Origin: Telopea speciosissima
Lineage: Eukaryota > Streptophyta > Magnoliopsida > Proteales > Proteaceae
Direction: 5' to 3'
Length of the DNA stretch: 64,000 nt
Assembly: GCF_018873765.1 (NCBI RefSeq)
Contig: NC_057916.1
Coordinates: forward strand, 32,897,501-32,961,500
Shown here piece after piece: positions 33,096 through 64,000 of the stretch. Positions within the stretch are counted from its first letter, which is position 1. The number at the start of each line of letters is the position of its first letter. Under the pieces are notes generated by a model, which ran no database searches, was not told the DNA's origin, and saw only the letters and a program-made list of their open reading frames with translations. A program made the translations under genes and the position numbers.

Positions 33096-33136
33096 ACAGG
33101 TGTTGCCAAGAACCATGTTTTAACCAATGCAACCTG

Positions 33137-33482
33137 TTAAGTTATGTGCATGTATGGCAGAGGTGTTGTTGTCCAATACCCTGTGGTACTTTATTCGCAT
33201 TAGGCCTGTTGTTGTTGATCACGATAGGGGGAGTGTCCCTATCGTGATGTGGTTATATTTCCTTATTAGTTTCATGACTCCTTATTAGTTTATAACTGGG
33301 ATTGTACTCCGAGTAGGAATCCTACTTAGAGTACAATTTTAGTTACAAACTAATAAGGAAACATAACCACATCACAATAAGGACACTCACCCTATCGTGA
33401 TCAACAACAACATGCCTAATTACAATAGAGTACCGCAGGATACTGGACAACAATACCTCTGGGGTACATGCACATAACTTAA
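33137..33482. repeat. Long foldback element, about 340 bp, bounded by TTAA
   Basis: Arms 33141-33305 and about 33318-33478 are near-perfect inverted copies (for example GTTATGTGCATG against CATGCACATAAC, and GATCACGATAGGG against CCCTATCGTGATC) around a short loop near GAATCCTACTTAG. TTAA occurs at both outer edges and could be a target duplication. A transcript through it would form a long hairpin. It lies just downstream of the TatB-like coding region. Confidence 0.8.
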
Positions 33483-33516
33483 CTCAACCAATTATGAAGT
33501 CTAAAATATTACATAG

Positions 33517-35483: not shown

Positions 35484-36437
35484 TTATGCTGCCAAGCAAT
35501 CAATGGCACCACACTCTTATACTTTTACGGTGTTTGCACACTCATGGTAGTTCCAGAATGGCACCAGCCGTCCACAAGATTGGCATCGCAGGAATCTCTG
35601 CTTTTATCTCCCTTTGTTTCTCAAGGAACTTCACTTCCTCTAATGGCAATCTGAAATCAAAATACAGAGTAGACAAAAAGACGAGACAAACTTTCTGAAT
35701 ATTCGTTGAGTTACAAGAACGTAAACGAGTTCCCAAAGAAACTAAGAACCCTAAAATATGCTACTCAGCATAAAGGAGACATCAGCAGCGAAAGTAACAA
35801 ACGACATACCTACTACTCCTCTCTCTTTTTCTTCGGTTAATCGTTTATTACTTCGACCTGTCTTTCTGGAAACTGGAATTCTTCATTTGCATTTGATGGG
35901 TATCTGAATTCTAAGCGTTTCTTTGATATTTGGTCGGATTAAGATGATTTAGATCAATTATCAAATAGTGTATACAATTGCACAGTCCTCCCGCGTGTTC
36001 CCAAGTCAAAAACCGGGTCTGCCCAGACCAGATTTTCAGCCGACGGTCCAATGGTTCGGACCGTTAAAACATTGGATCAATGGATTTGGATGGGAGGTCG
36101 AAAGACTCTGAACCAATGCAGGCAGGAACCAAACGTATGAAAAAGGAATTTTTTGTTTCAAAAGTTGGGCCACATTAGTAGGCCCGATCTGAAACCGGGT
36201 TGAAGTCCAAGACTGGCCTGATTAATTACTACACATGTCGGGCTCAAGTACTGATCTGATCGATTAATAATCGAGTATTCTTGGTGCAAGGTAGTGGCCC
36301 AACAGTTGTTCGATCGAGACCGACCAATAATTGACCATTTATAGTTTGATTAACCCGTTTAAGCTCATTTACCCTATTTAACGATCATTTGTGGCCCATT
36401 TAAAAACCACCTATAGCCCAATTAGTCAATTAACCTG
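35484..36437. other. Intergenic part of duplication copy A
   Basis: Upstream flank and presumed promoter of the TatB-like gene, then AT-rich spacer with repetitive CCGATTA/CCCATTTAAG words. Conserved in copy B at 50855-51837. No further gene seen. Confidence 0.55.
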
Positions 36438-37240
36438 ATTATGGACCGATTATTAACCGAACGAATAGAAACGTGTCTATGCTCTACAAGGCCTGCTTAC
36501 CTAAACGGAAGGAAAGGGTACAAGGGCCTTAAATTGGTGGGGACTGATTAGACCTGACTGAAATCAGTTTGGCCCCGACGGATTGACACCCTGGCTGAGA
36601 TGTGGTGTGTTTGTACAATGGTAGTGAATGGTGAAAATCATTTTTGTGAACAACAAATTCCTATCATTTGTTGCATGTGTAGCTTTTGACATAAGAAAGA
36701 TGAAAAATCTCATCCTTTCTTTTGGCTTGAAGGAATATCCCATTTCGGTTTGACTGAGGAAGGATATTTTCGACAGATAATTTATTGATTGATTATGGAC
36801 CAATAATTGACCAGTCGGATAGAAACGTGTCCATGCCCCGGCCTACAAGGTGTGATTACCTAAACGGAAAGTAAGGACACAAGGGCCTTAAATTGGTGGG
36901 GGGCGATTAGGCTTGACCGAAACTGATCCAGCCCAACCGATTGACATCAAGACTGAGATGTGTTGTGTTTGTACATGACAGTGAATGATGAGCTAATCAT
37001 TTATGTGAGGTAATCAAATTCCTATAATTTTTTGCATGAATTATGTGTAGCTTTTCAGCTTTTGACATAAGAACGATGAAAAGTCTCATCATAAACCCCC
37101 TCTCCAAAAAATAAATAAATAAATAAACAAATAATTTCTTCTCCTTTCATTGTTTATGCATAGCTTAATTCTTTTGGTTTGTAGAGATCCTCCATTGTTG
37201 GTTTGAGGAAGGATATTTTCGATAGAAGAGATTTATTGTT
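36438..37240. repeat. Internal tandem repeat, two units of about 0.35-0.45 kb (copy A)
   Basis: The block starting GATTATGGACCGATTATT at 36438 recurs from 36792 (GATTATGGACCAATAATT). Shared landmarks in the same order are GAATAGAAACGTGTC, GGGCCTTAAATTGGTGGGG, GAGATGTG and GAGGAAGGATATTTTCGA. The same two-unit structure occurs in copy B (51838-52640), so it is older than the segmental duplication. After it, 37241-37808 holds AT-rich spacer with no gene. Confidence 0.75.
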
Positions 37241-37870
37241 TCAAACGTTCAATTATAATATCAAATCATCATGGATAAAGAGATTCTCTCTTCACTTTTT
37301 GGTGATGACAAACTTTTGCCAAAGAAAAATCTTGCCTTGCCTAGCCTTGAAATTAAAGAGAGATATGGTTAGGAGTCAAATATAATAACATAAATAAAAT
37401 ATGAGGTTTTACCTCATCACAAGTGTGGGAAGAATTTCCAATTGCAGCTAACCATGGCAAGAGAAACAACTTTGTCTAATAGTGGGTCCACATAGTCAGG
37501 GAGGAGAAAGAGTGTTAGTATGGATCCACATGGTCAAAATGTGAGAGAGCATAAAAAAGGTCCCCCACAGTATCAACGTGGAGATCTTTTTTCCATAATA
37601 TAATAAGGAATTAATTAAACCCCACATCCTCTAATGATAATAATAATAATTTCATTTCCAACCAATTACCTCATAGTTTTCATTTAATTAGTGACATAAT
37701 CATGTGGTGTAATGATGACAAAAATTCCATTTTTATGTTGAAAATTTACACTTTCTTTTAATTTCCCTTGTAAACCATTAGAGCAAGGAAAAAGAACACA
37801 ACACCATCCCTTTCAACACATTAATATTAAAACACCTTTTGTCACCGTCATGGACGACTCTACTAAATTT

Positions 37871-37967
37871 TTCTTCCTCCAGTGTGAGTGCGATTTTCTT
37901 CCTCCGGTGTGAGTGTGTTTTTCTTCCTCCAGCGTGAGTGCGTCTCCCTTTCTCCGGAGTGAGCGTC
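37871..37967 (+). repeat. Tandem repeats in the LINE 5' untranslated region
   Basis: Four imperfect units of about 25 bp built on TTCTTCCTCCAGTGTGAGTG. Short tandem units in 5' leaders are common in mammalian L1 promoters; here the role is unknown. Confidence 0.75.
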
Positions 37968-38236
37968 CTGATCTGCAGCCATGGCTTACTTCCACGACAC
38001 CTTCATTGAGGCCTTTGTAGACCCTCTAGTGTGTCACCTCCTCATAACCACGCTCTTGTTCGCTCACTATTGTTTGGAGCTTTTTGGAGCACTGGTTTTC
38101 CTGGTCGAGTACTTACTCCAGTCACCTTTCCCCTTGTCCCCTTCTTTTTTAATCCCCTCCTCCTTCTGTTTTGCTTCCTGTATTCCGTGTTGTTTTTTCC
38201 CCCTTCCCTATTGGGCAGTTCATTTCTCCTTGCCTC

Positions 38237-39982
38237 ATGGATAGGGGTGAATCCTCTCGACCTCCCCCACCTGCTAAAGGTAAGGCACCTCTATACACAA
38301 CCTCCTCGCCTGACTCGGAGGAGGATAACTCGCTACTCCTTGACGATGAAGTAGAAGACCTTATCAACTCTCATTCTGAACTCATACTCGTCGAAAAAGT
38401 TCTCGACGGTAAACACTTCTGCCAACAGGCAGTTCATGAAGCCCTTATTGCAGCCTGGAATCTCCTCCATGACGTTCACGTCACCCCGATGGATTCTCAC
38501 CGCTTTCTCTTTCATTTCAGCCATAGCATCGATGTGCGAAATGTTCTTGAAGGTAGCCCTTGGTCAGTTTCTGGCAATCTGCTGCTCCTAGAGCAAGGCA
38601 GTGACCCTAGCCAGTGGTCCTTTACCACCGTCGAGTTTTGGGTCCAGCTACACGGTATTCCAAGTGAACTACTGCACCTGGACTTTGGTCTTCAACTATC
38701 CTCAAAGTTAGCGAGCCCTTACAAATCGATGTTGATCTCGGGAGGTCGTGGGGGTCAGTGTGCTTCTTATTTTTGATCGAGAATCCGAGTAGACATCCAC
38801 AAGCCCCTGAAGAGGGAACTGATGATAAAGCGTCGAAATGGCTCCCAAATCCCAGTTCAGGTCCATTATGAGAAGCTTCCAATATTCTGCTATTACTGCG
38901 GGTGTTTGGGTCACGACGAGAAGCGCTGTGAACGTTTTTTCGTTGCACAACAGCAATATCAGAGTAGCCATGGATGCAGAAACGTGACCAGGTGTTGCCA
39001 TGCCCCCCCTCTCCCTTTTGGCCCGCTACTTTGAGCCTCGATTCCTGAACCATGGCTGCTAGACGAGGCCCCCCTTATCCTGGCCGAGGGCCCAACTGAG
39101 TATGGGCAACAACCGAGGGTCACTAAGCTTCCATCACCTTATCATCCCCCTGCCGGTGTCGGAGAAGAAACTCAGCCTTCTGAGAGCCTCACAAGTAAGG
39201 GCATGCGTGATCTCTCCCCAACTTCCACCACGACATGCGTCAGGTACGGGCATTACCCGGCACACCCTGCCACCTTGCAGCTCTGTCACCCTAATTCCCA
39301 AAATCAGTCTGTCTCTGTCACACCATCAGACCCCAGCTGTCTGTCCAACGAAGCAATGATTTTTGCTTTGGATTACTCCCATTTTCAAATCCCATCCATT
39401 AATCTCTCTCCAATCAATACCCTGACCCCAACCGTTAACATTGAGGATTCTTCCAACACCCTGATCGTTGCTCTCCAGTCCCACCTGAGTCATTTTCCTG
39501 GGGACGTTAACCCCCTTTTAAGCCTTCTTCCAATGTTATCCGGTTTCTCTATATCCCCACTTGGGCCACTTCCAAAAGCCCCTAACCCCATCGTGACCTA
39601 CAAGAGTCCAAATCCCAATGGGCCTGGACCTAGTACTGCTGTCCCCTCCCCTCTATCAGGTACAACAGAATCCCTTTCCCCTGAACTAATGCCTGGGCCC
39701 AACCTCACACCAACCTACCAGCTGCCCTCATCACCCCTTCCTGCACCCACAGTTCCCATCCTCCCTTCACTTCTGCTCAAGAAGCTGGCCAGAGAGAACC
39801 AACCCAGACTTATTGATCGTCTGAAACCGTTTGATAAATGAGCTTTCAAACCAAAACCCAAAAGAGCTAGAGTCTTACAGCAGGAGGTTGCTGATTCTCT
39901 TGAGACCCCATCCTCTCAGGTTAATTTTTTAACGGATGGCCCCTCGGTGGTTGGGGGATATCAACCCCCAATGGATCTATGA
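38237..39982 (+). pseudogene. LINE ORF1 (DUF4283-like plus CCHC knuckle), broken
   Basis: A single reading frame runs from MDRGESSRPPPPAKGK at 38237 to a TGA at 39980-39982, interrupted only by in-frame TGA codons at about 38774, 39032 and 39839. Order: acidic N-terminus; a DUF4283-type RNA-binding-like domain (LILVEKVLDGKHFCQQAV to about 38770); a zinc knuckle CYYCGCLGHDEKRC (C-x2-C-x4-H-x4-C) near 38887-38930; and a long proline-rich tail. All three stops being TGA is compatible with CGA-to-TGA decay of methylated CpG. The stop overlaps the ORF2 start by ATGA. It would encode the nucleic-acid chaperone of the LINE particle. Confidence 0.85.
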
Positions 39983-42900
39983 AGCTCATCTCTTGGAATT
40001 GTCAAGGACTAGGGAGACCCCTGACCTAGTCCCTGACGGTCCAATCTCTGTGCCACCTCTCCCAAGCCGTTCACCCTGACATCCTTTTTCTTATGGAGAC
40101 CCGTAGTTCACGGAAGAAGATCTCGGCTATTGAGCGGCGACTAAAGTTGATGAATCAGTTCTCGGTGGATCCTATTGGCACATCAGGTGGTCTGAGCCTT
40201 CTTTGGAGTAGTATGATCTCCATTGATATTCTATATTTGGATCATAATATTATTGATGCCAAGGTGACTTCTAAATCAAACCCCCCTTTCTTTCTGACTT
40301 ATGTTTATGGTGATCCAGTGAGATCTAACAGGCATTTTGTTTGGGAGCGTATCATCCAATTTGGAGCAGATAGACATGAAAATTGGATGGCTATGGGGGA
40401 CTTCAATTCCCACTTATCGTGGCACGAGAAGTTGGGGGGAAACTCTAAGGCTAGCAGGGACATCTCCATCTTCAGGGGCTTCCTCGACTCCTGTAGTCTT
40501 TTTGACATAGGGTCCCACGGTCCTTCATATACATGGAATAACAAAAAAGAAGGTGCTGCCAATATCAGAATTCGCCTCGATCGAGTTCTTTCTAACCAGG
40601 CCTGGAGGACTTCGTTTTCAAATGCCATTGCTGTGGTGCGGTCTATAATCGGATCTGATCACTTTCCTATAGTCATCGACACTGAGGGTGGTAGATCTAC
40701 TGGAAAGAAGCCATTTCGTTTCTAGGCAATCTGGTTCTCCCATGCTGAGTGTTAAAATGTGGGCTCGGATGCGACTGGGAGGGGGAGATGATGTCTTCCA
40801 GGTGGTCTTTGAGACGGTTAGCTGTGATCTTAGTGACAATCTTGATAATGACATTACATAGGCTGATCGGGCGATACTGATCGATATTCTCAGGCTGGTC
40901 CACCTTAGGAATGAAACAAATGAATGTTTTATTAGAAATCTTAGGAAGAACACCAGACTGGAAAACCTCAACCACAAAGTTGCAAATGTCTGATCCAACA
41001 ATGTCCCAATATTTCTGAAAAAACGTCGGGGAAAGACCATCAAGACCAGGGGATTTCAGTGGTAGCATAGCAAAGAGAGCAGCCTTAATTTCAATGATAT
41101 CTGGGGTTCTCAGAAGGAAGTCATTTACAGCATCCGACACCGAAGGTTTGACACATTGAAGAACCTGAAATAGGGCTGTGTCATCAATCCCTTCAGATGC
41201 AAATATGTTTTGGTATCGAGACACAACTTCTGAGAAAACCTCGTCTTCAGACTTGGACCACTGGCCATTTCCCAATCTAAGCTGCAAAATTTTATTCCTC
41301 TGTTGACGAATAATAGTAGACGTATGAAAGAAGCAAGTATTCCTGTCCCCGCAGGTCAGCCAGTGTGCTCGAGACTTCTGATGCCACAATGTCTCCTCAC
41401 GTTGAAGCTCTATTTCGAGAAGTTTTGCAATATCACGGCCTCTAGCTTGGGAGATCTCAGATGGGTCATCTTGAATCTTTTCCAATTCCCGCATGTAACC
41501 TTTGATCTTGCGTTGCACATTGCCGAACACTTCGAGATTCCATTTGGAGAAGCTATCTTTGCAATTCAGAGCCTTCAGGTGAATTTGATTAGAAGCAGAA
41601 CCGATAACTTGAAGAAAGGCAAAAAGTGTTTCATGGCTCTCAAATTAGATATGGCAAAGGCGTATGATTGACTGGAGTGGGCTTTCATGGAAGGTGTTCT
41701 ATTGCGCCTAGGTTCTGTAGCAAATGGGTCTCTTTGATCTTGTCTTGTATTACATTGGTTTCCTACAATCTTCTAATCAATGGGACGGTTTGAGGTGCCA
41801 TTACTTATTCTCGGGGTATTCCGCAGGGCGATCCCCTCTCGCCGGCACTCTTTGTTCTTTGCACCCAGGCTTTGAGTTCGGTCCTTGAGCAAGCCCAAAA
41901 CCAGGGGTCCATCAGTGGCATGAGGGTACGCAATAGAACTTCCCCCCTTTCCCACCTATTTTTTGCTGACGACAGTCTGTTGTTCTCCACAGTTTCTCTT
42001 ACGGAGATTCAAAATTTGAAAGACTGTTTGGATCTCTATTGTAAAGCTAGTGGTCAGGCTATCAATTGCCATAAGTCCTCTCTCACTTTCAGCCCCAACA
42101 CGCCTCCAAAGTTCAAGAGGTGGTTTTCTCGGATCCTCAAAATGCCATATGGGGAGGGTCCGAAGAAATACTTGGGTCTTCCAAGCGAGTTTGGTGCTTC
42201 TAAGGTGGGGTTGTTTAGAGATATTTCGGAGAAGTCTTTGGCTCGGCTTCAAGGGTGGAAGCAGCAGTTCCTTTCTCAAGCTGGTAAAGAGGTTTTGATC
42301 AAGTCAGTAGCCTTATCCATGAACACTTCCGCGGCTTCCCACTTTAAGCTACCGGCATCTCATCACTCAAAATTGAATAGGGCTGCCTCTCATTTCTTTT
42401 GGGGCAAAAAGGAAGGACGTAACAAGATGAGATGGCTATCATGGAAGCGCCTGTGTAGATCGAAAGACAAACGAGGGTTGGGCTTTAGGGATTCGGCTAT
42501 CCACAACAAAGCCCTCCTGGGCAAGCTAGCTTGGAAGCTTTGGCAATGCCCTTCCTCTCCTTGGGCTATGTTTATGAAACAGGTTTATTTTCCTCACTGT
42601 GACTTTCTTCATGTTGGGCTTGGCTCCAATCCTTCTTGGGCGTGGAGGGGGATTATAGAAGGTCAAAAATGCATCTTGGATGGCTTGCTTTGGGTTGTCG
42701 GTACTGGGGAACAGATTAATGTGTGGAGTGATCAGTGGATACCCACCTCAAGTAATTTTAAAATCCAACATGCCCCTAGGCCCAATGCTCCTAATGCCGT
42801 TTTGGTTTCTGATGTCATCGACTCGGAGAACAGAGTGTGGAAGTAAGATTGGCTAAGTCAGATTTTTCACCCTCAAGATGTCGAGGGTATCTTGGATATT

Positions 42901-44089
42901 AAACTTGGACTCTTCCCTTCCTCTGATAAGCAAGTGTGGGGAGGCGCAAAATTTGGAGTTTATTCTATCAAGTCGGGATACCATTTCCTCTGCAATCAGA
43001 GAGATCGTCGTGAGCTTGTGGCATCCCCTCCCTCTACTACCTCCAGTTCACCTCTCCTTGTTCCTAAGTCGTTCTGGAGGAAGATTTGGTCCTGTAACAC
43101 TATGCCTAAAATCCGGAATTTTTTGTGGAGGGCGTGCAGTAATGGGCTGGCTACTGGGGCAGCTCTTTTGCAAAGACGCACAACCATTGATCCTTTTTGT
43201 CCTCGTTGCGGTGCCCTGTCTGAGATGATCGACCATATCTTATTGGATTGCCCATTCGCTCGAGCTATCTGGTTTGGATCTTCGTTGTCTTATAGTCCTT
43301 CTAGCCTATCACCTTCCCTGGTTACTTTCATCAACCATTGGGGGGACTTTGATAAGCAGGGGAAACAAGCTTACAAGGATGTGATTTGCAAGATCTCCTT
43401 CTTGTGCTGGAGCATTTGGTGCCCTCGCAACCGGCTTATCTTTGATGGATCGCGGTCTACCCCTCAAGAAGTCCTTCATCAGGTGGAGAACCTTTCCCTG
43501 GAATTTCTTATGACTACCACTCCTCAGCAGCGCCCCTCTGATCTCTTAGACTCAGCGGATCCCACCCCCCTGGGTAGGGAGTTTGGTCTCCACCTCATCC
43601 TTCGTTCTTTAAACTCAATACTGATGCAGCCTCCAAGGATGGGAAGCAGGGAATCGGATTTGTGATTCGTTCCTCTCGACAAAGGATTATTTCAGCTGTG
43701 TCCAAGCCTATGCCTTTCTCTTCAGTGCTCCAAGGGGAAGCCATCGCGGTGCGTGAAGGACTGCTTTATTGTATCTCGGAGTGTATCCATCGACGATGTC
43801 CTTGAGGAATCAGATTGTAGGGAGCTCATATTATACCTCATCGATCCTAGTCTACCCCCCCCCCCCCCCAATTGAGCTGATCAACATCATGCAGGACATT
43901 CGCTGTTTGAGTCCTTGCTTTAATGCATATAGTTTCCACCATGTTCCAAGAGAGATTAACAGCGTGGCTAACTCTCTTGCTAGGAAAGCCTTGTCTATAG
44001 CGTATGAGACAGTCTGGCCACCTTCCACTCCTTGGATTTCGGACTTATGTCATTCGGATTCCTCGTGCTGGACACGGTTCAATGAATAA
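39979..44089 (+). pseudogene. LINE ORF2: endonuclease, reverse transcriptase, zf-RVT, RNase H; broken
   Basis: ATG at 39979 opens KLISWNCQGLG, the APE endonuclease start. GDFN (near 40400) and GSDHFP (near 40655) are its catalytic-region motifs. The first half of the reverse transcriptase is inverted (40772-41602, minus strand). Plus-sense coding resumes with KGKKCFMALKLDMAKAYD, GIPQGDPLSPALF, and the active-site FADD at about 41963. Then come the thumb region, a zf-RVT block (WRACSNGLATG, CPRCGALSEMIDHILLDC) and an RNase H-like domain (NTDAA, QGEAIAVREGL, VANSLARKAL) ending near 44089. Stops and frame changes occur throughout (for instance at 40723, 41668 and 42844). Plant L1 elements often carry this RNase H; the order is otherwise normal. 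Confidence 0.88.
40772..41602 (-). pseudogene. Inverted reverse-transcriptase segment inside the LINE
   Basis: This block of about 830 bp encodes, on the minus strand, the amino-terminal reverse-transcriptase region: SKWNLEVFGNVQRKI, HWLTCGDRNTCFFH, LKSPGLDGLSPTFFQKYW, FICFIPKV and YRPISLCNVIIKIVTK, ending ISPSQS. All flanking LINE sequence reads on the plus strand. The left junction is nearly seamless relative to the normal order (endonuclease linker, then GSASNQ). At the right, only about 20-25 residues after ISPSQS are missing. This is therefore an inversion in place with a small loss, not a second LINE copy. Confidence 0.85.
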
Positions 44090-44116
44090 GTTTACTTCCT
44101 ACCAAAAAAAAAAAAA

Positions 44117-44791
44117 GAAAGGGAGGTAATTCAATCACTCTAACTTTTGCCATGTGGAATGCACAATAGACAAATCTCGGCTATTGAACATGTTATGTGT
44201 CTTGAATTCTTGAACCAATTCCGAAGTTTGGCCCACTCTTCCTATCACTCATCTCGTTTGGGGGTGCGGTGGTGAAGCCCAGACGGTACAGTATAACCCA
44301 ACCTAATGGATTGACCCAACTTGGAGGAGTATTTCTTTGTTTTATCATCTTGTTATTTAAGCAAGAGAGAAGAGTGAAATTTGAGGATTTTCGAGTTAGG
44401 ATTTTCCTGTAGAGAGATCTTACTATGACCTTTGGGTGCTTTTGAGAGATCTCCATTGTATTTTCTTCCATTACATTGTGAATCATCTTCATCTTCGCTC
44501 TTGGATGTAGTACACTAGTACATCATATTGGTATATAAACAACGTTAAATCTGTGTCATCTGTGCTTTGTTTTTGTTTTTCCGTGTTTCTTGGTGTTTGC
44601 GTTAACAGAAAAACTACATATTTCCTCTCACAATCCTAAGTTCAAGGGTGAGTGGTTTTACTACTTTTCTTTGCTTTTATTCCATGTAAGCCCAAATTTC
44701 TCACTCGATTGATGGTATTTATTTTTACCATCATGTCACATTACACATACAAAGCCTGTATTGCCATGGTTTGCGGTTACTGCCTTGCAAA
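44117..44791. other. Intergenic part of duplication copy A (continued)
   Basis: Collinear with 53187-53836 in copy B. Spacer downstream of the receptor gene; no coding sequence recognised. Confidence 0.55.
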
Positions 44792-45066
44792 CATGGTTTC
44801 AAATATCAGTATTGGATTGGGTGTATCAGTTGATTCGTATCGATATCAGCCTTTTAGGGGACATGCGCATAAAATTCAGTGTCTACAGTTGTGCCCAATA
44901 TTGATACATGTCCAATCTACTATCACTGAAATGATTCTTATTAAGGATAAAATTGTATAAAACTGAAATTTTTATTGACATTGAGGGCAAAACCATCCAA
45001 TACGACCTGATACGATTGATACATATCGATATCAATATCGACTGAAATTAATAGATCTAAACCATG
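44792..45066. mobile_element. Candidate MITE shared by both copies (copy A)
   Basis: The ends CATGGTTTCAAATATCAG and AATAGATCTAAACCATG are partly inverted, and the interior repeats GTATCGATATC words. Flanks CTTGCAAA and CTTATAAT agree at only 5 of 8. The matching element in copy B is 53837-54111, so it predates the duplication. Confidence 0.45.
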
Positions 45067-45398
45067 CTTATAATGCATGCAGGGTTTATTTTCTTTCACT
45101 TTCCCTGCCAATATATATGCTTTAACTTTATAAAAGAAAATATTGTTCCTTCAACTAGTTGTGTTCGAGGATCAATGGAAATTGAAATGAAATGGAAGTT
45201 TTAAACTCTTTCTCTTCTCATCAACATGAATTTTCATTTATTTTAGACAAAATGCATCCAAAAAAAAGGAAAAAAGAAAAATAATATTACATTTGATGCC
45301 TTCATTATAATATGATCTGTGCTACATAACTCCTCTAGGCAGTGCATCTTGAAACTAAGTTAAGGGAAAATGGCCATGCTTTTAGTGCTATTGTGTTT

Positions 45399-47315
45399 TT
45401 AGGTATATGACTCAGAGTAGTCCAAACACAAAGCTTCACTCTTTGATAGATTATAAACAGTATCATCCATGGTTGGTCTCTTAGAAGGGTCTCTCTGTAC
45501 ACAGGCAATGGCAACATTCATAACATTCATGATACTCTCTATTGGGCATGGAATCTCTTCCAGAAGAAACTTATCCACCCATTCCTTCAACTTCTCATCC
45601 TTCTCATCTTCCTCTTCCTCTTCCTCTGAAACTTTTTCTATATTCATCCAAAGTAACTTCCCTTCCTCATTAATGGCTTCCTTTCCAGAAACTAGCTCAA
45701 GCAAAACCACCCCAAAAGCAAAAACACCCATTTTCGTCGTTAAAACTCCATCTGCTAGATACTCTGGTGCAATATAACCATGAGTGCCAACAATTCTCAT
45801 GGTTACAGCATTACAACCAGATTTTGCTAGTCCAAAATTCACAATCTTGGCTCTCATGCTTCCATCTAATAGAATGTTACTAGTCTTGATATCTTTATGT
45901 ACCACCCTTGGCCTCGTGTGTTCATGTATGTATTGAAGACCATTAGCAACATCAATGGTGATACGTAACCTTGTCTTCCAATCCAACTTCATTGTTCTGT
46001 TTTCCTCATGAAGCCATGAATAAAGAGATCCATTCTCAACATAATCATACACTAGATAGCAGCTTCCAACCTCAGGGTGTATGCAGAAACCTTCAAGCCT
46101 CACTAGGTTACCATGGTTTACCTATAAACAGGAACTCAAATGAAACTTTAGGAAGATATACAAGTTGCTCAACAAGTAAATGTTAATCAATTAATTTAAG
46201 AGATGAAGACTGAAAATATGGATCTTAAAACACTGTAAGTCTAGGGCATGGTGCATGCCATTTTGGGGTCAAGGCCTTAGGCCTGCTTAATACCATGGCA
46301 AGTCAACTGGGTTCAAGTTCTGCCGATCACAGAAAAACATTCCATGAACAACTAATCCCATGTCTCTTCTAAATTATTCTCACCCATTCTTTTTAATTTG
46401 ATCCTTGAAACCATTATAAACTAGACCAGATTGAACAGTTAACTCAACAAACATTCTTCGATTTTAAGGGAAATAAGACATTTCCAACAGTGGAACCTTT
46501 CTAACTGTCATTTTAACTGGAATTTAAAACAACAGTGGAAGGGGAGGAGTGATCACTTACCTTTTTTAAGATCTTCAGCTCTTCACAGGCGTTCCATTTC
46601 ATCCTCTTAATGGCATAGAACACTCCACCGATGCGCCCTTTATAAACAGAGCCTTGAATTAAACAGCTTTGGTTGAATCCAGCAGTTGCTCGTCTCAAAT
46701 CTTGAATCTCATACACTCCATACTTATCCAAGGATTGTGAAACATCAGTTATGAAATTCTTCCTCAGTGCCCGCAGCTGTTTCTCCTGGTCATCTCTTGT
46801 TCCTTTGAAAAGCTTCAAGAGAATCTCCCGTTTATAAAAGAAACCCATAAGCAAAATCAATATTGCTAATAGAAAGCACGAAAGTCCCAACCCGATTTCC
46901 AACCCCAAAACATAATGATCTTCATCCTCCGTAGTCGATTTAGATTTTCGAGGAATATAAGGTTGATCTAGAGGAGGAATTTGAGAGACTGGAAGAAAGA
47001 TGACACTCGATGGAACGATGTTCTGCCCATTTACATCAATTATAGATTGTGTATTGAGTCCAAATTTCGCAGCAATGGAAGCTATGGTATCAGATGGATG
47101 GTAAACATAGCTAATGAAATATTTTATTCCAGACTGCATTTGGGTTTGGTTGGGACGGTTGCAGAACACTGGAAAAACAACGTCGATTCCAACTTGGAGT
47201 TTGGTGGGATCAAGAGAAGGGTTAACAAATTCCACACTTTGATAATTTGTCAATTCTTGGAACTGATTGTTGGAAAGGTCAAAGTAGGTGTTACCTTGTT
47301 GGATTGTAAATGGGA
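45399..47315 (-). pseudogene. LysM receptor-like kinase, 5'-truncated duplicate (copy A)
   Basis: Exon 1 remnant about 47315-46561 and exon 2 46121-45399 match the intact gene at 54445-56854. The signal peptide and LysM1 are absent because the duplication ends there; upstream sequence is unrelated. Relative to copy B, the second CxC pair has become CNR, AKIANFG is AKIVNFG, and the kinase subdomain IX Asp in TKMDVFAFG is Gly (TKMGVFAFG). The reading frames otherwise stay open, so the copy is fairly young. It retains LysM2-3, the membrane segment and the kinase region, but without a signal peptide it is unlikely to make a working receptor. Confidence 0.85.
46122..46560. other. Intron of the copy A receptor pseudogene
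   Basis: It contains a weak tRNA-like stretch near 46255-46330 with a B-box-like GGGTTCAAGTTC, also present in copy B near 55345. About 145 bp present in the copy B intron (roughly 55425-55570) is missing here, between two CACC words. Confidence 0.5.
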
Positions 47316-49742
47316 TTGCCATCAGTGACGTTGTGTAGTAGAGAAAGCAAGGCCCTGGAGGGTGTTCTTATGGTCTGCAAGGTAGGGGGACTGAGTTCAC
47401 ATGGAACAAAGTGGAGCCGAACATGGAACCTCTCCCTGGCCTCAGGCCAGCACTCTACCACACTGGCAGCCACCACCACGCCAGGAGGTCATTCAATTGA
47501 CAGAGAAAATTAATCTTTCACAAGAGTTAGGGAAGGGCATTTTAGGTGTAGAGCCTAGCAAGCATAGGCTATTTGCGCCTATCTTAAGAGGATGGCGGGA
47601 CTTCAAGCAAATATTAGGGCGCTTCACAGTAGCTGTATTGAAGAAAGGATCTGAGATTGGCAGTTATTAAGGTTATGGTGATAGTTAGACCAATTCTAAC
47701 CAGTGTGCTCTGTCCTCCTCACTCAATGAACTCATACTCAGTCCTCATGGTCCATGCCAGGAAGGTACCCCTGAGCCTTCAACTCCAAGGCCAAAACTTG
47801 CATAATAATTTCCATGTGATGATCCTGAACATCACTAGTCAGGAATTTGTGGGTCTTGCCATTGAATTCAATCCAGCTAGCACCTGGAGGCTTCTTCATT
47901 CCACGTTCCCTCATGAGGGCTCTCACCTTGGCCACTTCATCCCACATATGTGCCTTCGCATAGATATTTGAAAGCAGGACATAGTTACCGGCATTGTTTG
48001 GTTCTATCTCTAGCAAATGTTTCCCAGCTACCTCGCCAATCTCAACGTTGTTATAGACTCTACATGCACTGAGTAAGGAACCCCATACACCAGCATGAGG
48101 TTTAACCGGTGGCATGACATCGACAATGATTCCGTAAGCCTCCAAGATGTGGCCGGCACGGCCTAGCAGGTCAACCAAGCACATGTAGTGATCCGCAGTT
48201 GGGGTAATTGAGTAATCATTTTGCATGGACTTGAAGTATTGTTTTCCCTCGTCTATCAAACCTGCATGGCTACAAGCAGACAAGACCACAATGAAGCAAA
48301 CACTGTCAGGATTCAACCCGTCTTCCTTCAGCTGAGAAAAGATCTTTAGAGCCTCCATGCCACGCCCGTGCATACCGAAACCTGATATCATGGAGCTGTA
48401 ACAAACTACATCTTTGTCCTTCCAGCTCTTGAATACTTCGTAGGCCATGTCTGGATCGCCACACTTGGCATGCATGTCTATGAGTGCCGTCACTGTGTGG
48501 GTATTCAATAGCTCGCTCCCTCGGCTGTTGATGTAGTCTTTGATCCATTGTGCCAATTTGATTGAGCCCGATTGAGCACATGCAGCCACTACGCTAGCAA
48601 TTGTCGTATGGTTAGGTTTCACATCTCTTCCCATCTTTAACATGAGACGGAAGAGATCCACAGCTTCATCAAAGAACCCCACCTTAGAGTAAGCAGAGAT
48701 CATTGCATTCCATGTAGCTGCATCCCTCTCTACCATCCCATCAAACAAAGATCTTGCAGCCAAAACGTCACCACATTTTGCATAGCCTGTGATCATGGCC
48801 GTGTAGATAACAACATTGACGCTCATCTGCAATCGACACGAGCACATGTCATCGAAGAGTTCCCTAGCATAATCCATCTCATCCACTTTGGCATAACCGG
48901 TGAGCATCACCTCCCATGTGAAAAGGTTTCTCTCCGGCATTACTTGGAATAAAGACCCCGCAGCATCCATGTTTCCAACAAATGCATACCCAGCAATCAT
49001 GGTATTCCAAGCCTGAATGTCCCTAATAGTCATTCTATCGAATACCTGTCGTGCTTCTTTCGCAAGTCCACATTTAGCATAGAAATCAATGAGCGATGTC
49101 TGGATGCGAATTTCCTCATCACAACCGTATTTGACAACATTGTTGTGGATCTGCATTCCCTGCTTCAAGGTCACTAATAAAGTGCATGCCTTCAACACAG
49201 ACGACAAAGCAAAGGTGAGGGCCTGGTCTCTAGCCATAGCAGAACCAATGCGGCGGTGCATCTGAGCGTATATCACCACTGCTTCTCTGCAACATGATTG
49301 GGAGTTGGACTGTTTCGAGTAGCCCCTGATCATGGCTGTCCACAAGTACACATTTGGGCACTGAATACTGTCAATGACAGCACGGGCGTGTCTTAAATCG
49401 CCAAAAGCTGTGAATTCACGGATAAACTTGGTGTTCAAGAAACTGTTCTGAGATTGTCCATTCACAACTACATGAGCGTGAATTTGCTTCAGTTGCCTTG
49501 CATCCTTGCATTTGCTTACTAATCGAATAATTCGATCCTCCTCTATCCTACCCCAACTGCGACCACCCATATGGTTGGGCTTCCAAGACTGAGATTCCTC
49601 TCGCTCTTGCAGCGAGGGGTGATGGGCATACACCAATTAAAGCTGATTCATTCCCGAATGATCATCACCGATCTTAGTCGTTGTAGAGCAGCTTATATTG
49701 TGTGATCTCAGCTCCAGAGGGCATGGACTACGCCCGTTTCAC
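47316..49742. other. Non-duplicated DNA at the duplication junction
   Basis: About 2.4 kb between the end of copy A and the start of copy B, with no match to either. It holds the PPR gene, about 105 bp upstream of it and about 420 bp downstream. Near 47405-47480 the minus strand has tRNA-like words (GTGTGGTAGAGTGC, then GGTTCCATGTTCGGCTCC), a possible SINE head. Confidence 0.7.
47738..49636 (-). CDS. PLS-class pentatricopeptide repeat protein, E-type, intact and intronless
   Basis: A single 632-residue open frame from ATG at 49636 to the stop at 47738. It shows the order LKQIHAHVVVNGQ, then alternating P, L and S repeats (for example WNTMIAGYAFVGNMDAAGSL, YTAMITGYAKCGDVLAARSL, WNAMISAYSKVGFFDEAV), then the plant E domain (WGSLLSACRVYNNVEIGE, NAGNYVLLSNIYAKAHMWDE, KKPPGASWIE) and a short tail. 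There is no DYW domain. Such proteins act in mitochondria or chloroplasts, usually as site-recognition factors for C-to-U RNA editing, recruiting a DYW partner in trans. The intact frame argues it is functional. It lies exactly between the two copies of a segmental duplication and is the only gene there. Target RNA and organelle cannot be told from sequence by eye. Confidence 0.93.
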   Translation of the reverse strand: MVYAHHPSLQEREESQSWKPNHMGGRSWGRIEEDRIIRLVSKCKDARQLKQIHAHVVVNGQSQNSFLNTKFIREFTAFGDLRHARAVIDSIQCPNVYLWTAMIRGYSKQSNSQSCCREAVVIYAQMHRRIGSAMARDQALTFALSSVLKACTLLVTLKQGMQIHNNVVKYGCDEEIRIQTSLIDFYAKCGLAKEARQVFDRMTIRDIQAWNTMIAGYAFVGNMDAAGSLFQVMPERNLFTWEVMLTGYAKVDEMDYARELFDDMCSCRLQMSVNVVIYTAMITGYAKCGDVLAARSLFDGMVERDAATWNAMISAYSKVGFFDEAVDLFRLMLKMGRDVKPNHTTIASVVAACAQSGSIKLAQWIKDYINSRGSELLNTHTVTALIDMHAKCGDPDMAYEVFKSWKDKDVVCYSSMISGFGMHGRGMEALKIFSQLKEDGLNPDSVCFIVVLSACSHAGLIDEGKQYFKSMQNDYSITPTADHYMCLVDLLGRAGHILEAYGIIVDVMPPVKPHAGVWGSLLSACRVYNNVEIGEVAGKHLLEIEPNNAGNYVLLSNIYAKAHMWDEVAKVRALMRERGMKKPPGASWIEFNGKTHKFLTSDVQDHHMEIIMQVLALELKAQGYLPGMDHED

Positions 49743-49835
49743 TGCAGAATACACTTCAGTGAAAAGAAGCAGCAGCAGTAAAAAAGAGAATCATTGAAAT
49801 ACATAAGAATGTAGATATCTAAAGGGTGGTAATAC

Positions 49836-50854
49836 CACTGCCAGGTGAAGTAGGCTCTGGATTTTCCATTAGCCTACGAGTCAATGGACCCGGATTCATG
49901 GTAGATATGCTTCGGATTTCATAACGAATTGCTTCTAGTTGTTCCATTGTTTCTTTGAGTTCTTTGTGTACCTACAAGGTAGAAAAGAACATGTATAACT
50001 ATATTTTCAGAGATATGATGGTCCTCTAAAACATAGTCAAAAATTTTATCATGTAAAAGAGACATTAGAACATTATAAAACGAAAGACAGAAGAACCCAG
50101 CATTGTAGAAGATGCTACTAGTGCATGCTTGTTCATTGACAGGAAAGACCTCCAGGGTCGTGCTATGGCTAAACTGCCAATGGATGATATTTGAATAAGG
50201 GGTTTGCATCTGTGCCCAGAGCATCAGATATCATGTCATGGTGCTTTCACTCAACTTTCTCAAACAGAGGCCAGCCTCGATACAACATAAAATGTGGAGT
50301 AAACAATTGGTTCCTCTCGAGTAGGCAGTGGGAATACCCAACATTATAATCCCAGGTTTGCAGAAATTCTTTTATTAATATCGATTCCGCTAATTTAAGG
50401 ACCCAATGGCATTGATCAGTGACAGTTTCAGCCTGCTTAGGCCAAAATTATCTTACTTGCTAATTCAAAAATAAAGACACTACCTGGCTAGCTTGAGACT
50501 CCTGCAGAACATTTTCAAGCTGACCACGAGCAAGTTGAACGTACCCGATTGCTGTGCCAGCTAACCTTCCTGCTGTTCTAGCGATGATTGGGAGATCCTT
50601 GGGACCTAAAATCAACGAGAACATAAAATCCAATTCACTACTCGGGAAATGAATACGAAGGAACAGAAATCCAGAAACAGAACTGGATAAAAGAGGTTCA
50701 GGAAAAACATTAGAAATAAAATGCTCTAAATTGGATCAGAGAGTGACCGCTGATTAAACTGAAGAAAGATTGAACAAATTGAGAGAGACCCACCGATTAG
50801 ACCAGCGGCCGCTCCAACAATGAGGAAGAGCTCACCGTACGAAATCCCAAACAT
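49836..50854 (-). pseudogene. TatB-like gene, 3'-truncated duplicate (copy B)
   Basis: Exons 1-3 (50854-50794, 50605-50484, 49971-49836) keep open frames and splice sites matching copy A. The fourth and fifth exons are absent: about 90 bp into intron 3 the sequence changes to the non-duplicated block with the PPR gene. It still encodes the membrane helix, hinge, amphipathic helix and the EIRSISIMNPGPLTR region, so a short TatB-like protein could in principle be made by reading into the intron. The simplest view is a non-functional fragment. Confidence 0.82.
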
Positions 50855-53836
50855 TTATGCTGCCAAGCAAACCAAAATATCAATGGCACCACTCTTATAC
50901 TTTTACGGTGTTTGCACACTCATGGTAGTTCCAGAATGGCACCATCCGTCCGCAAGATTGGAATCGCAGAAATCTCTGCTTTTACCTCCCTTTGTTTCTC
51001 AAGGAACTTCACTTCCTCTCATGGCTATCTGACATCAAAATACAGAGTAGACAAAAAGACAAGACAAACTTTCCGAATATTCGTTGAGTTACAAGGACGT
51101 AAACGAGTTCCCAAAGAAACTAAGAACCCTAAAATGTGCTACTCAGCATAACATTATTTCAACCACAAAGGAACATCAGCAGCGAAAATAACACACGACA
51201 TACCTAGTACTCCTCTCTCTTCTTCTTCGGTTATTCGTTTATTACTTCGACCTGTCTTTCTGGAAACTGGAATTCGTCATTTGCAGTTGATGGGTATCTG
51301 AATTCTGAGCGTTTCTTTGATATTTAATCGGATTAGATGATTTAGATCAATTATCAAATAGTGTATACAATTGCACAGTCCTCCCTCGCGTTCCCAAGTC
51401 GAAAACCGGGTCTGGCCAGATCAGATTTTCAGCCGACGGTCCAATGGTTCGGACCGTTAAAACATTGGATCATTGGATTGGATTGGAGGTCGAAAGACTC
51501 CGAACCAATGCAGGCAGGAACCAAACGTATGAAAAAAGAATTTTTTGTTTCAAAAGTTGGTCCGCATTAGTAGGCCAGACCTGAACCGACGGGTTGAAGC
51601 CCAAGACTAGCCCGATTGATTACTAAACGTGTCGATCTCAAATATTGATCGATTAATAAGTGCAAAGTAGTGGGCCAACAGTTATTCGACCGAGACCAAC
51701 CAATAACTGACCATTTATATTTTGATTAACCCATTTAAGCTCATTTGCCTTATTTACCGATCATTTGTGGCTCATTTAAAAACCTCATATAGCCCAATTA
51801 GTCAATTAGCCCGATTAGTCTAATTAGCTTGAGCCTGATTATGAACTGATTACTAACCAACTGAATAGAAACATGTCAATGCTCTACAAGGCCTGATTAC
51901 CTAAACAGAAGGAAAGGGTACAAGGGCCTTAAATTGGTGGGGACTGATTAGGTCTGACTGAAATCAGTCTGGCCTCGACGGATTGACACCTTGACTGAGA
52001 TGTGTTGTGTTTGTACAATGATAGTGAATGGTGAAAATCATTTTTGTGAGCTAAGCAAATTCCTATATTTTTTGCATGTGTAGCTTTTGACATAAGAAAG
52101 ATGAAAAATCTCGTCCTTTCGTTGATCATGCTTAGCTCATTTCTTTTAGCTTGAAGGAGTATCCCATTTCGGTTTAACTGAGGAAGGATATTTTCGACAA
52201 ATGAGATTTATTGACTGATAATTGATCAGCTGAATAGAAACGTGTCCATGCCTTGGCCTACAAGGTGTGATTACCTAAACTGAAAGTAAGGATACAAGGG
52301 CCTTAAATTGGTGGGGGGTGATTAGGCTTGACCGAAACTGATCCTGCCCAACCGATTGACACAGAGACTGAGATGTGTTGTGTTTGTACATGGCAGTGAA
52401 TGGTGAGCTAATCATTTATGTGAGGTAATCAAATTCCTATATTTTTTGCATGAATTATGTGTGCTTTTGACATAAGAATGATGAAAAATCTCATCAAACC
52501 CCCCCCCAAAAAAAGAGATAAAAAATCTCTTCCTTTCATCGCTTATGCATAGTTTAATTCTTTTGGCTTGTAGAGAACCTCAATTTTCGGTGGATTGAGG
52601 AAGGATATTTTCGATAGATGAGATTTACTGTTTGAAACGTTCAATCATAATATTAAATCATCATGAATAAAGAGATTCTATCTTCACTTTTTAGTGACGA
52701 CAAACTTTTCCCAAAGAAAAACCTTGCCTTGCCTTGAAATTAAAGAGAGGTATAGTTAGGAGTCAACTATAATAACATAAATAAAATGTGAGGTTTTCCC
52801 TCATCACAAGTGTGGGAAGAATCTCCAATTGCAGCTAACCATGGCAAGAAAAACGACTTCGTTTAATAGCGGGTCCACATAGTCAGGAAAGAGAAAGAGT
52901 GTTAGTATGGATCCACATGGTCAAAATGTGAGAGCATAAAAAAGGTCCCCCACAGTATCAATGTGGAGATCTTTTTCCCATAATATAATAAGGAATTAAC
53001 TAAATCTAATCATAATAATAATAATTTCATTTCCAACCAATTACCTCATAGTTTTCATTTAATTAGTGACATAATCATGTGGTGTAATGATGACAAAAAT
53101 TACATTTTATGTTGAAAATTTTCACTTTCCTTTAATTTCCCTTGCAAATAAACGGAGCAAGGAAAAAGAACACAACACCATCGAATTAGAAAGTGAGGTA
53201 ATTCAATCACTCTAACTTTTGCCATGTGGAATGCACAGTAGACAAATCTGGGCTTTTGAACATGTTATGTGTTTTAAATTCTTGTACCAGTTTCGAATTT
53301 TGGCCCGCTCTGCCTATCCCTGATCTCGTTTGGGGGTGCGGCGGTGAAGCTCAGACTGTCCAATGTAACCCGACCTAATGGATTGACCCAACTTGGAGGA
53401 GTATTTCTTTGTTTTTCATCTTGTTATGTAAGCAAGAGAGAAGAGTGAGATTTGAGGATTTTCGAATTAGGGTTTTCCTGTAGAGAGTTCTTACTACGAC
53501 CTTTGGGTGTTTATGAGAGATCTCCAGTTTATTTTCTTCCATCACATAGTGAGTCATCTTCAGCTTCGCTCTTGGATGTAGTACACTAGTACATCATATT
53601 GGTATATGAACCATGTTAAATCTGTATCATTTGTGCTTTGTTTTTGTTTTTTCGTGATTCTTGGTGTTTGCGTTAACAAAAAAATTACATATTTCCTCTC
53701 ACAATCCTAAGTTCAAGGGTGAGTGGTTTTACTACTTCAAATTTCTCACTCGATTGATGGTATTTATTTTTACCATCATGTCACATTACACATACTAAGC
53801 CTGTATTGCCATGGTTTGTGGTTACTGCCTTGCAAA
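50855..53836. other. Intergenic part of duplication copy B
   Basis: Matches copy A, with the same two-unit internal repeat (51838-52215 and about 52216-52640). The empty LINE site lies at 53181-53193, where copy A has 6.3 kb. No gene seen apart from the flanking pair. Confidence 0.6.
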
Positions 53837-54111
53837 CATGGTTTCAAATATCAGTATTGGATTGGGTGCATCGGTTGATTCGTATCGATATCAGCCTTTT
53901 AGGGGACATGTGCATAAAATTCAGTGTCTACAGTTGTGCCCAATATTGATACATGTCCAATCTACTATCACTGAAATGATTCTTATTAAGGATAAAATTG
54001 TCTAAAACTGAAATTTTTATTGACATTGAGGGCAAAACCATCCAATACGACCTGATACGATTGATACATATCGATATCAATATCGACTGAAATTAATAGA
54101 TCTAAACCATG
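53837..54111. mobile_element. Candidate MITE shared by both copies (copy B)
   Basis: Same element as 44792-45066 at high identity; ends CATGGTTTCAAATATCAG and ATCTAAACCATG. Confidence 0.45.
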
Positions 54112-54444
54112 CTTATAATGCATGCAGGGTTTATTTTCTTTCACTTTCCCTGCCAATATATATGCTTTAACTTTATAAAAGAAAATATTGTTCCTTCAAC
54201 TAGTTGTGTTGGAGGATCAATGGAAATTGAAATGAAATGGAAGTTTTAAACTCTTTCTCTTCTCATCAACATGAATTTTCATTTATTTTAGACAAAATGC
54301 ATCCAAAAAAAAAAAAAAACAAGAAAAAAAAATTACATTTAATGCGTTCATTATAATATGATCTGTGCTACATAACTCCTCTAGGCAGTGCATCTTGAAA
54401 CTAAGTTAAGGGAAAATGGTCATGCTTTTAGTGCTATTGTGTTT

Positions 54445-56854
54445 TTAGGCATATGACTCAGAGTAGTCAAAACACAAAGCCTCACTCTTTGATAGATTAT
54501 AAACAGTATCAACCATGGTTGGTCTCTTAGAAGGGTCTCTCTGTACACAGGCAATGGCAACATTCATAACATTCATGATACTCTCTATTGGGCATGGAAT
54601 CTCTTCCAGAAGAAACTTGTCCACCCATTCCTTCAACTTCTCATCCTTCACATCTTCCTCTTCCTCTGAAATTCTTTCTATATTCATCCAAAGTAACTTC
54701 CCTTCCTCATTAATGGCTTCCTTTCCAGAAACTAGCTCAAGCAGAACCACCCCAAAAGCAAAAACATCCATTTTCGTCGTTACAACTCCATCTGCTAGAT
54801 ACTCTGGTGCAATATAACCATGAGTGCCAACAATTCTCATGGTTACAGCATTACAACCAGATTTTGCTAGTCCAAAATTCGCAATCTTGGCTCTCATGCT
54901 TCCATCTAATAGAATGTTACTAGTCTTGATATCTTTATGTACCACCCTTGGCCTTGTGTGTTCATGTATGTATTGAAGACCATTAGCAACATCGATGGCG
55001 ATACGTAACCTTGTCTTCCAATCCAACTTCATTGTTCTGTTCTCCTCATGAAGCCATGAATAAAGAGACCCATTCTCAACATACTCATACACTAGATAGC
55101 AGCTTCCAACCTCAGGGTGTATGCAGAAACCTTCAAGCCTCACTAGGTTACCATGGTTTACCTATAAACAGGAACTCAAATGAAACTTTAGGAAGATCTA
55201 CAAGTTGCTCAACAAGTAAATGTTAATCAATTAATTTAAGAGATGAAGACTGAAAATATGGATCTTAAAACACTGTAAGTCTAGGGCATGGTGCATGCCA
55301 TTTTGGGGTCAAGGCCTTAGGCCTGCTTAATACCATGGCAAGTCAACTGGGTTCAAGTTCTACTGATCACAGAAAAACATTCCATGAACACCTAATCCCA
55401 TGTCTCTTCTAAATTCTTCTCACCTACTATGATATTTCTTAAAAAATAATATAAGAATAAGAAATGATATGGCATTGCTGAACATCTATTCCTTTGTTGC
55501 TTACTTCTTTTATATTTGAATGGAATGTATTTAGTTTTGAGCAATAGGTACCGTCCACATGACTCCACCCTCCCATTCTTTTTAATTTGATCCTTGAAAC
55601 TATTATAAACTAGACCAGATTAAACAGTTAACTCAACAAACATTCTTTGATTGTAAGGGAAATAAGACATTTCCAACAGTGGAACCTTTCTAACTGTCAT
55701 TTTAACTGTTTCTGTCTTATTTAACTGAAATTTAAAACAACAGTGGAAGGGGAGGAGTGATCAGTTACCTTTTTTAAGATCTTCAGCTCTTCACAGGCAT
55801 TCCATTTCATCCTCTTAATGGCATAGAACACTCCACCGATGCGCCCTTTATAAACAGAGCCTTGAATTAAACAGCTTTGGTTGAATCCAGCAGTTGCTCG
55901 TCTCAAATCTTGAATCTCATACACTCCATACTTATCCAAGGATTGTGAAACATCAGTTATGAAATTCTTCCTCAGTGCCCGCAGCTGTTTCTCTTGGTCA
56001 TCTCTTGTTCCTTTGAAAAGCTTCAAGAGAATCTCCCGTCTATAAAAGAAACCCATAAGCAAAATCAATATTGCTAATAGAAAGCACGAAAGTCCCAACC
56101 CAATTTCCAACCCCAAAACATATTGATCTTCGTCCTCCGTAGTCGATTTAGATTTTCGAGGAATATAAGGTTGGTCTAGTGGAGGAATTTGAGAGACTGG
56201 AAGAAAGATGACACTCGATGGAACGATGTTCTGCCCATTTACATCAATAATAGATTGTGTATTCAGTCCAAATTTTGCAGCAATGGAAGCTATGGTATCA
56301 GATGGATGGTAAACATAGCTAATGAAATAATTTATGCCAGACTGCATTTGGGTTTGGTTGGGACAGTTGCAGAACACTGGAAAAACGACGTCGATTCCAA
56401 TTTGGAGTTTGGTGGGATCAAGAGAAGGGTTAACAAATTCCACACTTTGATAATTTGTCAATTCTTGGAACTGATTGTTGGCAAGGTCAAAGTAGGTGTT
56501 ACCCGGTTGGATTGCGTAGGGGATGTTGGCATAGAAGAGATTGTTGGAGTTGCAAGAGCATGTCACAGGGACAAAAAGGCTCTGGTTTGGGAGGAGATGA
56601 GAGGCTGGAAAGGAGATGTTGCTGGGACTTGATATCATTATTCGGCTTACACCAAAGAGATCACCAATTTTGGCGAGGGTCAGAAAGTCTGGAGCCATGG
56701 CTTTGTAGAATACATAGGCTTGACATGGAAAGTTGGATTGGTCCTCTGAGCACTGGTAGTTTGTGATGTTTTGTTGGGCTTGGATTGGATAAAACCAACA
56801 GAAGAGGAGGACCAGGATGGGAGAGAAGCAGAGATTCACTCTTTTCAAACTCAT
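54445..56854 (-). CDS. LysM receptor-like pseudokinase (LYK4/LYK5-like), complete
   Basis: Two exons, 56854-55769 and 55161-54445, give 600 residues. Signal peptide about 1-26 (ending FYPIQA). The LysM ectodomain, about 45-222, has CxC pairs at C99-C101 and C162-C164. There are many N-glycosylation sites. Membrane helix about 246-271. The kinase-like domain follows. The glycine loop is degenerate (IQGSVYKG), the lysine is kept (YAIKRM), the catalytic loop is HKDIKTSN, and the DFG aspartate is Asn (NFGLAK). It is therefore a probable pseudokinase, as in LYK4/LYK5/NFP-type members that pair with an active LysM kinase to sense chitin or lipochitooligosaccharides at the plasma membrane. The acidic run EEEEDVKDEK lies in the C-lobe. 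A 5'-truncated duplicate lies at 45399-47315. Exact LYK/LYR subfamily is uncertain. Confidence 0.93.
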
Positions 56855-57283
56855 TTTGTATTATCTCTATCTCCAAAATTTGCAGGGTAGTGGTATCTGT
56901 ATAAAAGCTAATTGTCACTGGTCTTCAATGAGTGAGATTTCTCCCTTGTATGAAATATACTCCTTGCCTCATGCTGCTCTTCTGATGTCATTCCTTAAGC
57001 AATGGTCTGGACCCACTATGTGTTGAATGCCACCAATGATATCTACTAGAACTACAACAGGATTTGAACCGGATGGATGAATCATGAACTTTAGTAAACT
57101 GAAAACCACACTCCACACCCCCCCCCCCCCAAAAAAAAAAAAAATTTTAACTCGAAAGAGAATATAATCCTCTGTATAGAATCCAATGTGGCCAATTTGG
57201 AAGGAAGTAGCAAAATTGAAAACACCCATTAACTATCAAGTAAAAAGGCTATAGAACTGTTAGACAAAGTATTCACTAATTAA
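56855..57283. other. Upstream flank of the LysM receptor gene
   Basis: Presumed promoter and leader. A C-run followed by an A-run occurs at 57119-57144. No gene or clear element seen. Confidence 0.5.
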
Positions 57284-63876: not shown

Positions 63877-64000
63877 AGTTTGGTATCAGAGCCAGGCACC
63901 ACGTCATGGTTTTGAGTCACAGAAGGGCTACCTGGATTAGAGTGAAAGCTGTTAACAAAGGGCTACCTGCTGCCAGACAGAAACCCTGAGGCAGAGTGGA
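63877..64000 (+). mobile_element. Second primer-binding site after the right LTR
   Basis: TGGTATCAGAGC at 63880-63891 follows the right LTR at the same spacing as after the left LTR, and the sequence after it differs from the first interior. The right LTR may therefore also serve as the left LTR of another element that runs off the window. Confidence 0.55.

Follow-up and report, generated by a model that had tools for sequence, protein, structure and literature searches.

Gene content and anatomy of the duplicated region

We analyzed a window of 64,000 nucleotides, the whole stretch of Telopea speciosissima DNA considered here, which contains no N characters and, judged by its genes, is probably plant nuclear DNA. 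Self-BLAST of the window revealed two direct (head-to-tail) repeats with unique flanks, referred to below as copies A and B. Copy A (positions 33945 to 47316, delimited by self-BLAST and profiles) extends from the 5' exons of a TatB gene to an NFP-type LysM receptor gene and includes a LINE insertion; its right end is uncertain, within 47306 to 47322. Copy B (49743 to 56514) was delimited by self-BLAST and alignment. The repeats detected by self-BLAST pair 33945 to 34347 with 49743 to 50146 (96.0% identity), 34752 to 37808 with 50141 to 53182 (88.4%, with gaps), 44116 to 46384 with 53188 to 55424 (94.9%), and 46383 to 47306 with 55572 to 56514 (95.3%). The LINE-type retrotransposon (37809 to 44115, forward strand, 6.3 kb), with DUF4283, endonuclease, RT, and zf-RVT matches, is present only in copy A. 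Once it was left out, 338 of the 6,543 paired sites differed between the copies (5.2%), with 34 gap events, in an alignment that runs a few bases past the junction. A 409-bp stretch rich in ATCCG-like repeats (34351 to 34759) is also found in copy A only, and a 149-bp stretch (55423 to 55571) in copy B only.

Between the copies lies a junction block of ~2.4 kb (47317 to 49742), which carries a PPR gene and is unrelated to the rest of the window according to self-BLAST, blastn, tblastn, and tblastx. The first-pass annotation had described this arrangement as a direct tandem duplication with an unrelated 2.4-kb block at its junction, and the repeats found by self-BLAST, together with the lack of a relative of the block in the window, bear it out.

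Each of the genes at the edges of the duplication is truncated in one copy, TatB in B and LysM in A, as seen from splice reconstruction and profiles. The TatB gene is located on the reverse strand. Its exons 1 to 3 were reconstructed in copy A at 34039 to 35483 (35423 to 35483, 35095 to 35216, and 34039 to 34174), while exon 4 (33832 to 33890) and exon 5 (33544 to 33741), assigned by splice sites and phase, lie to the left of copy A and are absent beside copy B. The splice phases of TatB-A are consistent (phase 1 into exon 4 and phase 0 into exon 5), and 3' exons beyond exon 5 were not located. Beside the block, TatB-B retains exons 1 to 3 only (49836 to 50854, reverse strand; 50794 to 50854, 50484 to 50605, and 49836 to 49971), with the junction cutting intron 3. 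The joined TatB protein matched TIGR01410 over residues 2 to 72 (E value of 1.3e-7; 32.1 bits, below the cutoff of 56.5) and, weakly, PF02416 (E value of 0.067; 12.9 bits, below the cutoff of 21), and neither the exon-2 frame nor the exon-5 frame alone gave a Pfam family above the cutoff. The gene cut by the junction, exons 4 and 5 included, is a putative mitochondrial-type TatB, judged by the plant protein and the splice phases. Plants are known to encode mitochondrial TatB in the nucleus (PMC6251230). TatB-B differs from TatB-A by three amino acid and three silent changes in 106 codons (dN 0.013, dS 0.040), and its exon-1 donor reads GTGGGT in place of GTGAGT; these changes are a weak hint of relaxed constraint. 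After TatB exon 5 there is an inverted repeat (33136 to 33483) with 137-nt arms, 88% complementary, that looks like a small inverted-repeat transposon.

The receptor gene, also on the reverse strand, matches NFP-type LysM domains in profile searches. In copy B (54448 to 56860, from ORFs and profiles) it comprises the N terminus, LysM1, LysM2, a third LysM, and the kinase. LysM-A (45402 to 47316, from profiles) is a truncated receptor kinase without the N terminus, LysM1, and the first LysM2 residues, and despite the missing N terminus and LysM1 it keeps its exon-1 and kinase frames open (45402 to 47322). Active kinases usually carry a DFG motif; both kinase parts (45402 to 46121 and 54448 to 55161) have NFG at this place, as in NFP-type pseudokinases.

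The breakpoints of the duplication are in TatB intron 3 and LysM exon 1. Because TatB exons 4 and 5 are found only to the left of copy A and the LysM N terminus only in copy B, the order before the duplication was TatB (through exons 4 and 5), a spacer, and LysM with its N terminus, both genes being unbroken. With both breakpoints inside genes, the PPR block was therefore not an old neighbor at either of them. We also considered the PPR gene as an old neighbor of TatB-B, with copy A inserted later, and rejected this order of events, since the location of TatB exons 4 and 5 to the left of A means that the TatB of copy B is the broken one. A relative with the PPR gene at this position and no duplication, which the first-pass annotation had named as the case against its reading, would need both TatB and LysM to be broken.

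The PPR gene

The coding frame of the PPR gene (47738 to 49570, reverse strand; 610 codons plus stop), identified by ORF and profile searches, is of the E class. The frame is open for 632 codons (49636 to 47741), with the first in-frame ATG at 49570 and the stop at 47738. Among Pfam families, PF01535 matched seven stretches (E value of 9.4e-63) and PF13041 five, and the NCBIfam model TIGR00756 matched seven. The E motif (PF20431) is full-length (positions 1 to 63 of 63) at residues 528 to 590, and no DYW or E+ family appeared among the eight Pfam families reported for the frame. By sequence, the best solved relative is a synthetic PPR-DYW protein (residues 95 to 627, E value of 2.8e-137). The predicted protein of the block is, as far as motif content tells, a PLS/E-class PPR protein without DYW. 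In general, proteins of the E class participate in C-to-U editing of organelle RNA.

The first repeat-like segment is preceded by roughly a dozen residues, some of them acidic. No transit peptide was evident by eye in the annotated frame; an exon encoding one may have lain upstream. The 5' flank from the ATG to the junction (49571 to 49742, reverse strand) is 172 bp long; inspected by eye, it contains short ATG frames out of phase with the PPR frame, in which no clear transit peptide was recognized. With only these 172 bp of 5' sequence of its own, the PPR gene follows the truncated TatB-B on the same strand. It had been described in the first-pass annotation as intact and intronless. The 610-codon frame is indeed open, and it contains no intron, a statement that holds for this frame only; the lack of an evident transit peptide and the short 5' flank qualify the description of the whole gene as intact.

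Simulations of neutral decay left the PPR frame intact in 0.4% of cases at K 0.054, in 4% at K 0.03, and in 0.15% and 0% for the two indel rates used at K 0.085, under a simple model in which the share of frame-breaking indels was set at 0.82 and the PPR gene was assumed to arrive with the duplication. The openness of the frame points to selection, or to a later arrival, and is not proof of function.

Ends and relatives of the junction block

Self-BLAST places the right end of the block sharply at 49742/49743. At the fuzzy left end, BLAST homology between the copies stops at 47306; an anchored extension beyond this position scores 4, a value reached by 138 of 5,000 random window segments, and in the copy-A frame the match to the LysM2_NFP profile begins at residue 18, at ~47316. 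The left junction is thus within 47306 to 47322. The block limits given at first pass, 47316 and 49742, agree with these results, the former being fair as an estimate. The last 24 copy-A sites before the block (47296 to 47319) hold 7 differences, versus 17 of 735 in the adjoining exon, and may represent an edge that escaped conversion, the product of error-prone or templated synthesis where the ends were joined, or sequence that is in part non-homologous.

Poly(A), a target duplication, and microhomology had been put forward as signatures to look for at the junctions, and each was either missing or no better than chance. Within 47323 to 49742 there is no run of seven or more A or T. The longest direct word common to the block ends, TCAGTGA (7 nt), was equaled or exceeded in 417 of 5,000 random pairs and was not placed as a target duplication, and the longest inverted word has 6 nt, with 1,380 of 5,000 random pairs sharing a word that long or longer. 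Terminal inverted repeats with a placed target duplication were not found at the block ends. By its look, the segment 47323 to 47500 had raised the suspicion of a tRNA-derived SINE, which we rejected: ARAGORN detected no tRNA in the window, Rfam gave no matches at the gathering threshold in 30000 to 60000 and two chance-level matches in 47200 to 49900, and neither a box A pattern nor a strict box B was found, with one loose box B match.

Searches for relatives of the PPR gene elsewhere in the window gave a best tblastn E value of 4.0, and those for the block a single 18-nt blastn match (E value of 0.45) and a best tblastx E value of 0.30. A second copy or remnant of the PPR gene within the window was rejected from these blastn, tblastn, and tblastx comparisons; no second copy of the block appeared in either copy of the duplication or in the flanks, 33.9 kb on the left and 7.5 kb on the right. 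Scanning a viral contig collection with the PPR protein produced no pattern matches, and among prokaryote genome contigs there were nine, none of which was confirmed.

Divergence between the copies

Divergence between A and B varies blockwise, from ~2% to 8%. LysM-A and LysM-B (44668 to 47295 versus 53738 to 56503) differ by 2.3 to 2.5% in the 3' flank, the kinase exon, the intron, and exon 1 alike, the intergenic duplicated parts by 7.5% and 8.0%, and TatB by 5.2% and 2.2%. Within 44668 to 46560, a stretch picked after viewing the profile, 45 of 1,862 sites differ, and an equally clean stretch arose in 0 of 2,000 shuffles. Gene conversion between the LysM copies is a likely reason for their low divergence. 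In exon 1, dN is 0.015 and dS 0.090, the latter speaking against recent conversion of this exon. The divergence of the flanking copies can be used as a rough clock for the event; gene conversion may blur this dating, and the age of the event is uncertain.

Origin of the junction block

We favor, with a probability of about 0.5, a reading in which the PPR block is ectopic DNA, captured when a break was repaired and the duplication formed. At the outset, unbroken TatB and NFP-type LysM receptor genes would have stood one after the other, TatB first. The segment between a breakpoint in TatB intron 3 and another in LysM exon 1 would then have been duplicated in direct tandem, and ~2.4 kb of DNA from a putative ectopic donor, with a whole PPR coding frame, would have been copied or ligated between the broken ends. 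Capture and duplication would belong to the same repair (or template-switching) episode, and the PPR frame would have stayed open from then on. A single episode of repair joining LysM exon 1 to TatB intron 3 through ectopic DNA would thus produce the whole anatomy in one step. No transposon or retrocopy ends were seen at the block, which favors capture, and a later independent insertion would need to strike the junction within a few bases, something that we regard as unlikely. Against capture, no microhomology or multi-donor mosaic is demonstrated at the joins, and the capture of one whole frame with little flanking DNA would be coincidental, except if selection acted as a filter. We infer an ectopic donor, arrival in the same event, and a functional PPR gene, and the case would be strong only with a donor copy found elsewhere. 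The first-pass annotation had read the block as possible filler DNA captured during repair, or as an insertion at the junction afterwards, an interpretation that our results partly support.

The main rival to one-event capture, and a serious one, takes the PPR gene for an ordinary neighbor: a larger tandem duplication would have taken it in from beyond LysM or TatB, and a later deletion would have removed the spacer together with the edge of LysM-A or TatB-B, so that the gene only seems to sit at the junction; such a course would account for the anatomy equally. Only duplication and deletion are invoked, both of them common; the 409- and 149-bp length differences between the copies indicate a region that gains and loses DNA, and with 7.5 kb visible to the right of copy B a twin could lie past 64000. 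However, no PPR twin or remnant is present in those 7.5 kb or over the 33.9 kb on the left side, and, barring loss of the twin, at least 7 kb of spacer would have to be deleted with the PPR frame spared. We consider this history somewhat unlikely. A deletion across an older junction would likewise truncate LysM-A and TatB-B as observed if the tandem duplication came first and a fresh break at or near its junction, resected on both sides, was later patched with ectopic PPR DNA. The use of genes or gene fragments as break-repair filler has been proposed in plants (PMC7935947, PMC3445842), but a second break in the same place is required, and the evidence of the window is the same as for capture in one step; we judge this two-step course clearly unlikely.

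A composite repair event that both duplicated the TatB-LysM segment and delivered the PPR frame could also have given birth to a new gene in a single step, through use of the TatB-B promoter or a chimeric TatB-PPR protein. The PPR gene, deprived of its own promoter and targeting exon, would then be placed behind TatB-B, whose part of the protein may direct it to mitochondria. TatB-B exons 1 to 3 amount to 319 nt and end in phase 1, with the end of exon 3 at 49836. Among the 24 AG sites listed, 4 keep the joined TatB-PPR frame open (read to 49400), the first of them with its exon base at 49605 and preceded by a pyrimidine-containing stretch; the chance of the right phase is about one in three for any one acceptor, and such a gene birth seems to us improbable. 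An assembly artefact, in which two haplotypes were joined in series around a PPR-bearing stretch, would fit the ~5% divergence and a LINE confined to copy A, and assemblies are known to contain false haplotype duplications (PMC9516828). The absence of N characters in the window and the divergence in blocks of ~2% to 8% argue against it, as does the truncation of two different genes at one join, which would not be the default for overlapping haplotigs, and we hold an artefact to be highly improbable. We give the slimmest chance to a transposon-borne or retroposed PPR gene inserted at the junction. Few introns are typical of PPR genes, and reverse transposition in bursts has been suggested as a means by which they spread (PMC1892557); here, however, the block has no A/T run of seven or more within 47323 to 49742, its end words are at chance level, and none was placed as a target duplication.

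Comparison with known cases

Capture at the junction would make this event a clean example of an already known kind. Wicker, Buchmann and Keller are said to have described in 2010 how filler-DNA (patch) repair of double-strand breaks moves genes in plants. As in their system, a gene-bearing stretch fills a break at a non-ancestral place and has no transposon ends; unlike it, the filler here occupies the join between two direct tandem copies and comprises a whole reading frame, and its donor is putative. Vaughn and Bennetzen reportedly found in 2014 rice insertions with partly tandem duplication, explained by a patch-mediated break model, with inserts of 10 to 1,000 bp. Tandem duplication and DNA from other donors come together in one event in the rice case as they would here, whereas the unit at our locus is several kilobases long and the insert 2.4 kb.

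The locations of PPR genes are highly variable between related plant regions, according to Geddy and Brown 2007 (PMC1892557), where the mechanism is left open and reverse transposition is mentioned. Our locus resembles these nomadic genes in having a PPR gene where the surrounding genes were formerly without one, and differs from them in an anatomy that points to break repair or to duplication plus deletion. For vertebrates, PMC2671141 describes duplication mediated by repair, with proximal chromosomal DNA being captured, and likewise has captured chromosomal DNA at repair junctions, although in animals of that group and not in plants. Filler DNA has been proposed as a route of gene movement in plants (PMC7935947 and PMC3445842, both citing the 2010 work), and PMC7935947 lists PPR among pseudogene families and treats filler DNA as a general model, with no link between the two in the passages concerned. 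In the partly covered literature on PPR genes, filler DNA, gene capture, and duplication breakpoints, we found no account of a duplication junction with a captured PPR gene. If our preferred reading of repair-mediated capture is true, a PPR gene between the two broken ends of a readable duplication would represent a route of movement without retroposition or a transposon.

Other features of the window

Pfam searches of 10 other ORFs of the window left 8 without a family. In the right flank, a direct repeat of ~280 bp, 87% identical, is located at 62242 to 62523 and 63615 to 63896.
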